DNA of 55,144 nucleotides, taken from Acidobacteriota bacterium. Lineage in GTDB: Bacteria > Acidobacteriota > Vicinamibacteria > Vicinamibacterales > CAVVIG01. The translations under genes were made by a program, and so were the position numbers. Below, in pieces: positions 41,261 through 44,891 of this stretch; the stretch's first letter is position 1, and every line of letters starts with the position of its first letter. The DNA is taken from NCBI GenBank assembly GCA_017883165.1, contig JADGOC010000007.1, positions 1 to 55,144 on the forward strand. The letters run 5' to 3'. The notes beneath the pieces were generated by a model that was not told where the DNA came from, did no database searches, and was given only the letters and a program-made list of their open reading frames with translations.

Positions 41261-42187
41261 ATGTCTGTCCTGCTCAAACCGTACAAAATCGTGCCCGGCC
41301 GCCGGGGCGCCAGCCGCTTTTATTTGTCCGATTGCCGTGACGTTTTTCGTCACCTCCCCGCTCACAGCGTGGACGTGATCGTCACCTCGCCGCCCTACAA
41401 CCTCGGCATTGAGTACAACCGGTACGAGGACTCCCTGTCGCAGGCCGACTATCTCGCGTGGACGAGCGACTGGGTGGCGGCGGCGGCTCGCGTGCTCCAT
41501 CCGGAAGGCTCGCTGTTCCTGAATGTGGGAGCCAAGCCGAGCGATCCCTGGACGGCGCTGGACGTGGCGCAGGCCGTCCGGCCCCATCTTCGGCTGCAGA
41601 ACATCATTCACTGGATCAAGTCGATCGCCATCGACCGTGCGTCGGCGGGCGCCGCGGCGGGGCTCTCGCGCGATCTGGCTGTCGGACACTACAAGCCGAT
41701 CAACAGTGATCGTTTTCTGAACGATTGCCACGAGTTCGTGTTCCACTTCACGCCGAGCGGCTCGACGCGTCTCGATCGCCTGGCGCTCGGCGTCGCGTAT
41801 CAGGATCAGTCGAACATCGGCCGCTGGCGCGCCGGAGCCGGCGGCGTCCGGTGCCGCGGCAACACGTGGTTCATCCCATACGAAACCATTCAGCGGCGCG
41901 ACCGGGACCGGCCGCACCCGGCGACCTTCCCGTCGAAGCTCCCCGAGCAATGCCTCCGGCTGCATGGCCTGTCGCGCATCAAGGTCGCGATGGATCCGTT
42001 CCTGGGTTTGGGCAGCACGGCGGTGGCGTGTGCCAGGCTGGGTGTGGGCTTCATCGGTTCCGACATCGATGAAACCTATCTCGACGAGGCGGTGCAGCGG
42101 ACGCGCGACGCGGTGGCGGCGGCCGGCCCTCCGAAGACCCGCAAGGCCGCCCTTCGCGTCGACAAAGCCAAAGGCGCGTCAGCCTGA
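41261..42187 (+). CDS. Orphan DNA methyltransferase (N6-adenine or N4-cytosine, beta class)
   Basis: 308 residues. The catalytic motif IV TSPPYNLG (from residue 42) comes first and the SAM-binding motif I (MDPFLGLGSTAVA, about residue 245) near the C-terminus, the beta-class order. DTSPPY-type DPPY/SPPY enzymes methylate exocyclic amines of adenine or cytosine. A basic C-terminal tail follows. No restriction endonuclease or specificity subunit is next to it, so it may act as a solitary epigenetic methyltransferase. Its last 9 bp overlap the end of the convergent VWA gene. The 115 bp upstream hold the hairpin described separately. Confidence 0.88.
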   Translation: MSVLLKPYKIVPGRRGASRFYLSDCRDVFRHLPAHSVDVIVTSPPYNLGIEYNRYEDSLSQADYLAWTSDWVAAAARVLHPEGSLFLNVGAKPSDPWTALDVAQAVRPHLRLQNIIHWIKSIAIDRASAGAAAGLSRDLAVGHYKPINSDRFLNDCHEFVFHFTPSGSTRLDRLALGVAYQDQSNIGRWRAGAGGVRCRGNTWFIPYETIQRRDRDRPHPATFPSKLPEQCLRLHGLSRIKVAMDPFLGLGSTAVACARLGVGFIGSDIDETYLDEAVQRTRDAVAAAGPPKTRKAALRVDKAKGASA

Positions 42188-43561: not shown

Positions 43562-44212
43562 CTAGTCTTCCTGGTTGGACGACGGCGGAGCGGCGTTGGC
43601 CGGACCTCCGCCGGCGCCTCGATCCCGGCGTCCGCCGCGGCGGCGGCGGCGGCGCTTGCGGCCGGGTTGCGCCCCGGCCGGATCCGGCGCAATTGGGGCC
43701 TGACCTGGCTCGCTGGTGTCGATGGTGTCGACGTTTTCGACGGTGTCGACGTTTTCGACAGGGGCAGTGCCGCTCAGCTCAGGCGATTCCGCCGCCGACA
43801 TCTCGAGCGACGTCGATGCCTCCGCCGGTTCGGCTGCCCCGGATTCGGCGCTCTCGGCGCTCTCGTCTTCGCTGTCTGACGTCAGTATGGCGCGCCGTGC
43901 CGCTTTCTCGGCCTTTTCGAGCCGGCGCCGCTCGCGCCAGCGTTCGACGTCAGGCGCGGGCGGAGGGATCGGTGTCGCGAGCAGCCGCCTCCAATCGAAC
44001 ACCACGCCGGGATTCCGCGCCTCGATTGTGCGCTGCACGTCCTCGGAGAACGGCAGACGGCCGACCTTCACGCCGGGCGGCGTGCGAAACCAGTAGAGAA
44101 TGCGCGCCCGCGTCTTGCCGCGGCGGTTCGTCGTGGACTGAACCAGATAGAAGTGTTCGTAGCCGCGCTTGTCGCGCGAGAATCTGAGGAACGCGGCGGC
44201 CGCGGTGGTCAT
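43562..44212 (-). CDS. Lineage-type hypothetical protein with low-complexity basic tail
   Basis: 216 residues. The N-terminal 85 residues look folded and conserved (FLRFSRDKRGYEHFYLV, GKTRARILYWFRTPPGVKVG). The middle is charged helix (WRERRRLEKAEKAARRA), then acidic Ser/Glu-rich sequence with the internal duplication VENVDT-VENVDT, and the tail is very basic and Gly-rich (GRKRRRRRRGGRRDRG), suited to nucleic-acid binding. The ATG overlaps the stop of the upstream gene as ATGA. I do not recognise a function. Confidence 0.65.
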   Translation of the reverse strand: MTTAAAAFLRFSRDKRGYEHFYLVQSTTNRRGKTRARILYWFRTPPGVKVGRLPFSEDVQRTIEARNPGVVFDWRRLLATPIPPPAPDVERWRERRRLEKAEKAARRAILTSDSEDESAESAESGAAEPAEASTSLEMSAAESPELSGTAPVENVDTVENVDTIDTSEPGQAPIAPDPAGAQPGRKRRRRRRGGRRDRGAGGGPANAAPPSSNQED

Positions 44213-44799
44213 TTCCGCTTGGAGGAGCGCGCGGGCTTCTTCACCGTCTTGCGCGCGCGTGGCGCACGCTTGGCAGCGCGGGCGGCCGGCTTGGCGGCGC
44301 GGGCGGCCGGCTTGCGGCGCGGTGCCGGAGCGGGACGCGCGGCGGCTCGAGCCCGCGCGGCGGCCGGGGTCTCACGGCTGCGGTGGACCAGCGTGAAGTG
44401 AATTTCGTCCCCGATGGTGTGGTAGCTCCAGATCTCGTTGACGTGAATGTGATTCTCGTCGGCGAGGCGCCTGGCCACATCGACCATCCCGGCCGGCACG
44501 TAGAGATGAAACGGGGCGCGCAGCTTGCCGAAATGCGCCCACTGGGCCAGCGCTTCGAGGTGGTTGACCGACTCGCCCGTTTCGACCTCGATGATGCCCT
44601 GCAGCCGGCGCCCCCGCTCGAGGGACAGCAGGACCAGGTCGGGATAGGTCGCGGTCGGACCGGTCCCCACCGCTGCGTTTTGCTGCGCTCCGGGGTTCAT
44701 CCCCACCTCATACTTGCGGCGGCACTTGGCCTGCAGCATCCGGATAATGCGGTCGTGTTCGAGTTGTTCGCGGACCGGCCGCACCAGGATCGGGCTCAC
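44209..44799 (-). CDS. Hypothetical protein with possible PD-(D/E)xK-like fold and histone H1-like tail
   Basis: 196 residues. The core (about 10-140) contains YPDLVLLSLERGRRLQ followed by GIIEVETGESV, reminiscent of the PD...(D/E)x(K/E) geometry of restriction-endonuclease-like folds, though no Lys is in the ExE position. The last 50 residues are Ala/Lys/Arg/Pro-rich with repeats of KPAARAA, like histone H1 or HU-tail sequences that bind DNA. GTG 44799 follows GGAGG. It is coupled to the next gene (ATGA) and lies 2.6 kb from an orphan DNA methyltransferase. Function not established. Confidence 0.65.
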   Translation of the reverse strand: MSPILVRPVREQLEHDRIIRMLQAKCRRKYEVGMNPGAQQNAAVGTGPTATYPDLVLLSLERGRRLQGIIEVETGESVNHLEALAQWAHFGKLRAPFHLYVPAGMVDVARRLADENHIHVNEIWSYHTIGDEIHFTLVHRSRETPAAARARAAARPAPAPRRKPAARAAKPAARAAKRAPRARKTVKKPARSSKRK

Positions 44800-44891
44800 C
44801 GAGACCCTCCAAACTGTTGAATCATCGGGATCAAACCCCTAAGTCTAACATGGATTTTGCCACCCTCTTCTGCGTACGCCACCTGGTCGGT

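Follow-up and report, generated by a model that had tools for sequence, protein, structure and literature searches.

A predicted nuclease-fold protein with a histone H1-like tail, and its partner gene, within one order of Acidobacteriota

Within the window, the whole 55,144-nucleotide stretch of DNA analysed here, two adjoining genes on the minus strand encode what we read, with a probability of roughly 0.5, as a DNA-tethered, nuclease-like genome-maintenance protein of an unnamed family (protein A) and its helper or regulator (protein B). The analysis shows the conservation and order of the genes, a predicted fold, invariant acids and the composition of the tail, whereas a catalytic activity, binding to DNA, the type of promoter, the substrate and what B does are inferred. 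Protein A would be a chromosome-bound, probably metal-dependent PD-(D/E)xK nuclease, or a DNA-binding protein derived from such a nuclease. Its globular domain would provide an acidic site of the form E...D...E-x-E, and its disordered H1-like tail would hold it on DNA in the manner of the lysine-repeat tails of actinobacterial TopA and mycobacterial HupB. Co-expressed with A from a housekeeping-type promoter, with a VWA gene next on the same strand, B (a small domain followed by an acidic, Arg-patched tail) would probably assist or control A, and the likely role of the pair would be genome maintenance, in which A would cleave some lesion or structure within the DNA of the cell itself.

The inheritance of A in single copy across one order, outside any named family, suggests an unstudied chromosome-maintenance enzyme, not a phage-defence system; A is vertically inherited and would be a DNA-bound, nuclease-like protein, probably of the housekeeping type, with a presumed activity and a presumed substrate. 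A more specific version, which we put forward only tentatively, makes A a DNA maintenance nuclease peculiar to this acidobacterial order. It would represent a new PD-(D/E)xK family whose E-x-E site resembles that of BamHI; held along the chromosome by the H1-like tail and accompanied by a partner of unrecognised fold, it would replace or add to a standard repair step acting on a mismatch, junction or R-loop. The fold and the tail are each of known kinds; what is new is that the two are combined, that the site reads E-x-E and that the genes are conserved across an order, and in the open-licence papers searched we found no description of the A-B pair. A is a lineage-defining gene, lacking a Pfam or NCBIfam name, in an abundant and little-studied soil group, and the joining of a nuclease-like core to a histone-like tail predicts a testable chromosomal role. 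If active, A would add a rare E-x-E family of nucleases and a new case of an H1-like tail keeping an enzyme on bacterial DNA.

Gene organisation and expression signals

Both genes are present as open reading frames on the minus strand, and the pair described from the sequence beforehand is real. Gene A occupies positions 44209-44799 (GTG start, 196 residues plus stop; 44212-44799 without the stop) and gene B positions 43562-44212 (ATG start, 216 residues plus stop; 43565-44212 without the stop). As described, the stop codon of A overlaps the start codon of B within an ATGA. Of the 56 junctions between A and B that were compared, only that of the window's genome has this exact overlap (1/56); gaps of up to about 22 bases are common, a 3-base gap is the most frequent arrangement (15/56), and in 11/56 the start codon could not be placed. 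Since the ATG of B in the window has no obvious ribosome-binding site of its own, translational coupling from A to B is likely.

Gene A is preceded by a GGAGG ribosome-binding site (44806-44810, minus strand), and a GGAG-type site stands before A in most of the relatives listed. Further upstream, the sequence TGTTAGACT (44842-44850, minus strand) is a probable extended -10 promoter element. Judged by eye, it recurs as TGnTAnAnT in many of the upstream regions of 44 relatives, the window included, and would correspond to a promoter of the housekeeping type. No operator-like palindrome was noted in these 44 upstream regions. Before A, a leader, 'GGTTTGATC...TTTGGAGG', is conserved among members of the window's family.

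Predicted fold, candidate active site and tail of protein A

According to the structural model and its neighbours, residues 1-142 of A (44374-44799, minus strand) very likely adopt the PD-(D/E)xK fold. The AlphaFold model of this domain (pLDDT 85.7, pTM 0.82) is an alpha/beta structure with helices at residues 9-26, 81-91 and 103-115 and strands at approximately 31-34, 55-58, 66-72, 97-102, 122-129 and 132-140, and it has the PD-(D/E)xK core. Asp54 is located at the edge of strand 55-58, and Glu71 and Glu73 at the end of the next strand, as in PD-(D/E)xK proteins. The preliminary description had pointed to a YPD...IEVE motif as reminiscent of such folds; the motif is present, and the predicted fold, the structural neighbours and the invariant acids agree with that suggestion. 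Among the checks it had proposed, structure prediction returned a nuclease-like fold; profile searches returned no match to a known family.

Conservation was assessed in alignment A5, which has 59 rows after removal of a mis-cut sequence (L089), a fragment (L020) and a duplicate of the window (L033). Invariant across these 59 relatives are R7, P8, R10, E11, Q12, E14, H15, L22, N35, P53, D54, E71, E73, S77, E82, W87, L99, P102 and E122. Four of them, E14, D54, E71 and E73 (encoded within 44374-44799, minus strand), constitute the candidate active site and are still invariant in rows with as little as 46% identity. The spacing between D54 and E71 is 17 residues. Set against the usual D...(D/E)-x-K motif, the position of the Lys is taken by Glu (E73), so that the site reads E...D...E-x-E.

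Foldseek gave no match for A at an E value of 0.001 or better; its upper rows include SfsA, BsaXI, VC1899, BsmI, BsaWI, Cas4, Cdn1 and RecE, and some of its rows are enzymes that cut RNA (splicing and cap-snatching endonucleases). A VIA-align comparison with 998 chains gave 100 rows at Z >= 5, of which the best 27 are almost all nuclease-like folds, most of them apparently of the PD-(D/E)xK class; clear non-nuclease rows occur from about Z 6 downwards. The best match is AF2093 (Z 8.5, rmsd 2.9, 105 residues aligned), and others include PaqCI (8.3), YaeQ (7.8-7.6), XisH (7.5 and 7.3), NucS and EndoMS (7.3) and NgoMIV (7.1). All structural scores are modest, the best Z of 8.5 lying near the level that the tool calls common. 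Although each score alone is weak, the consistency of the neighbour list and the invariant acids at the right places together make the fold likely.

At the sequence level, no family of Pfam or NCBIfam scores above its cut-off for A or for B, and the sequences of solved structures yielded no credible family for either. A has no credible family among PHROGs, its weak match there, made by 14 of the 59 members with a best E of 0.0068, being the unannotated phrog_36530. BamHI shares its core fold with A (2bam; Z 6.2, rmsd 3.7, 109 residues aligned), and both have Glu for Lys in PD...E-x-E; the literature on BamHI describes Glu at the place of its catalytic Lys (PMC4081073). Among solved-structure sequences no sequence relationship was found between A and the BamHI-type superfamily, and A differs from BamHI in its small domain, its H1-like tail and the lack of an obligate methyltransferase. 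XisH, the fdxN element excision controlling factor, shares the fold class of A and is likewise small, with one domain and a pattern, D...E-x-[KE]...S..LE.A..Q[YW], that by eye is similar to that of A; however, it has E-x-K and no such tail, whereas A has E-x-E and the H1-like extension. The hhalign probability for A and XisH is 0.1% (three-row profile), and the XisH model (PF08814) detects nothing in the genome of the window; it matched none of 14 controls but three places in one other genome, G201. NucS/EndoMS, also a fold neighbour, is a vertically kept repair nuclease and a possible functional parallel to A, and it combines an E-x-K site with an N-terminal DNA-binding domain of its own. At a threshold of E 0.001 its model (PF01939, NucS_C) gave matches in 7 of the 14 named control genomes and none in the genome of the window. 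For SfsA (PF03749) there was again no match in the window's genome, and hhalign gave a probability of 2.2%, outside the active site. Family models and hhalign thus give no support for A as a member of the NucS, XisH or SfsA families.

Residues 143-196 of A (44212-44373, minus strand) form an Ala/Lys/Pro/Arg-rich tail. The Ala/Lys-rich, H1-like character already noticed in the window extends to the whole family: all 59 tails measured (the masked sequence L031 and the fragment L020 were set aside) are long, rich in Lys, Ala and Pro, and poor in acids. Their length ranges from 42 to 410 residues with a median of 71, their mean composition is 27.3% Ala, 16.7% Lys, 15.6% Arg, 12.1% Pro, 1.9% Glu and 0.3% Asp (Asp plus Glu 2.2%), and the net charge is positive in every case, from +12 to +63. 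Local genes on the same stretches average 2.4% Lys, 9.6% Arg and 12.4% Ala. Ala/Lys-rich tails occur in many high-GC bacteria, so the tail of A by itself is no proof of DNA tethering. It is kept in four loci where B is absent (L072, L073, L074 and L087), and its role is therefore not solely the binding of B. H1-like lysine repeats are described as stabilising actinobacterial TopA on DNA and raising its processivity, with similar repeats in Ku and HupS/HupB (PMC7398561), and the tail of mycobacterial HupB is reported to be indispensable for nucleoid association (PMC5676037). As in TopA, Ku and HupB, the Ala/Lys/Pro-rich extension of A sits on a DNA-acting protein, here a predicted one; TopA is a topoisomerase, Ku acts in end joining and HupB is an HU protein, whereas in A the tail is attached to a PD-(D/E)xK domain.

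The loss of the catalytic Lys to Glu, the strong H1-like tail and the single-copy, housekeeping-type nature of the gene would also suit the chief rival explanation, namely that A descends from a nuclease but is catalytically dead, and serves as a nucleoid-associated protein whose domain and tail bind DNA and organise the chromosome without cutting it. We consider this unlikely: the four acids of the site, invariant throughout the alignment, would be needless for a purely structural DNA-binding surface, and an acidic cluster would be unfavourable for passive binding of DNA. Because the candidate catalytic acids are invariant, the suggestion that the pair is degenerate also lacks support.

Protein B

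As the preliminary description had noted, B begins with a conserved domain. It spans about 85 residues (43958-44212, minus strand), with D14, G17, Y40, G51, R52, F72 and W74 invariant in the 58 rows of alignment A4, from which three mis-cut sequences (L006, L053, L075) and the window duplicate L033 had been removed; the same rows, plus the tail of the window's protein, underlie the outline of the domain. The predicted model (pLDDT 78.2, pTM 0.64) has three strands followed by helices. Fold searches gave nothing above background for B: the best Foldseek E value is 0.23, the first VIA-align pass gave no Z >= 5, and the VIA list is flat, headed by three rows of the ribosomal protein PSRP-3 (Z 5.0, 4.3 and 4.2) that are tied with unrelated rows. 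A possible likeness of B to a transposase N-terminal domain has no Pfam support.

The tail of B had been described as basic and Arg/Gly-rich. An Arg/Gly-rich stretch does exist, but in the window the tail is mostly acidic (net charge -8) with a single Arg-rich patch at residues 184-199 (43616-43663, minus strand). Tails of the relatives are also mainly acidic, with a median net charge of -5, and a patch of at least 6 Lys or Arg per 8 residues is found in 51 of 61. The frequency of this patch, together with the weak likeness to PSRP-3 and the RNA-cutting endonucleases in the fold list of A, is what might be expected if the pair acted on RNA, with A as an RNase or RNA-binding protein and the Arg/Gly-type patch of B binding RNA or ribosomes. 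However, the structural scores of B are at background level and the tail of A is H1-like, which is typical of DNA, and we regard a role on RNA as improbable.

Outside the window's family, many B tails have a second conserved helical segment, 'LRARYAEI.ARI...LNPDAWVT..EV' (e.g., L053, L056, L058, L059 and L099). The B protein of the window does not have this segment, which was either lost from or never present in its family.

Neighbourhood and inheritance

Downstream of the pair are a VWA-domain gene on the same strand (TIGR03436; 42179-43546, minus strand; NCBIfam E 3.8e-48) and, as context only, a convergent DNA methyltransferase gene (N6_N4_Mtase; 41261-42187, plus strand; Pfam E 5.3e-34; PADLOC MTase_II 3.6e-102). 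Of 41 stretches, comprising 40 fetched loci and the window, 40 contain the VWA gene, 37 A, 36 B and 26 the methyltransferase. The VWA gene occurs together with both A and B in 32; four have A and the VWA gene without B, four have B and the VWA gene without A (two of these, L093 and L095, near a contig end), and one, also at a contig end, has A alone. In almost every stretch the VWA gene comes next after A and B in the same orientation.

The methyltransferase had been noted as lying close to the pair, and its co-occurrence with A across genomes had been proposed as a check. It is a conserved neighbour, as the 26 stretches show, and at E 1e-40 it is matched in 95 of the 193 class genomes, every one of them from the window's order, including 83 of the 121 genomes with A. 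The association is nonetheless incomplete: 38 of the 121 have no match at this threshold, among them the single-contig genomes G186 and G189, and 12 genomes have the methyltransferase without A. These absences make a classical restriction pair unlikely, that is, one in which A is a restriction enzyme needing the adjoining methyltransferase for self-protection, and for this methyltransferase the 38 genomes break the combination that defines type II restriction-modification, an endonuclease with its cognate methyltransferase. One could read the genes as a domesticated type II system in which B controls the enzyme or helps its specificity, and this would account for the nearby type II-like methyltransferase and for an E-x-E site like that of BamHI; the order-wide, single-copy inheritance of A is unlike that of mobile restriction-modification systems, and this explanation has little probability. 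The methyltransferase itself looks like an orphan and could be an order-wide epigenetic regulator. It contains an SPPY motif, which we assume may point to N4-cytosine methylation.

Single-sequence searches of the 193 class genomes gave 121 with the A domain and 123 with B, with few exceptions in one copy. Together with the invariance of P53, D54, E71 and E73 in 59 rows, these relatives place the motifs of A and B beyond chance. All matches fall within the window's own order, probably Vicinamibacterales, which accounts for 162 of the 193 genomes, and none was found in the 31 genomes of other orders. Profile searches across the phylum gave a similar picture, with A in 31 and B in 29 of 297 genomes, all listed as the window's order. 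A scan of genome contigs gave one named relative, an Acidobacteria MAG (75% identity), and scans of viral contigs, plasmids and phages found no relative of A.

Among the 162 genomes of the order, all three genes (A, B and the methyltransferase) occur in 78 and none of them in 16. A is joined by B alone in 27 and by the methyltransferase alone in 5, and is present without either in 11; B is joined by the methyltransferase alone in 5 and is present without either in 13; in 7 the methyltransferase is the single one of the three. A thus occurs without a B match in 16 genomes and B without an A match in 18, and the pair is not obligate; as each gene has been lost in some lineages, what they do is not essential to the order as a whole. 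The absences of the methyltransferase among genomes with A are drawn from single-sequence searches of partly draft genomes, in which individual losses may be missed genes.

The preliminary description had also raised a defence module. Tight gene coupling and the nuclease-like fold of A would fit a defence or toxin-antitoxin-like pair, but PADLOC-DB 2.0.0 gave no family for either protein at E values as high as 1, phages and plasmids gave no relative of A, the distribution is vertical, single-copy and order-wide, and each gene is found without the other, which makes such a pair very improbable. A degenerate or mobile defence module is thus not supported, and A-B is instead vertically inherited.

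Two further loci deserve mention. In L101 and L102 (genomes G168 and G182), A is absent from its place between the heme gene and B, with B and the VWA gene retained, apparently through a clean loss in part of one family. One genome has, besides B, a remote B-like match (G044:C52:1361-1582, E 1.6e-6) that may represent a paralogue.
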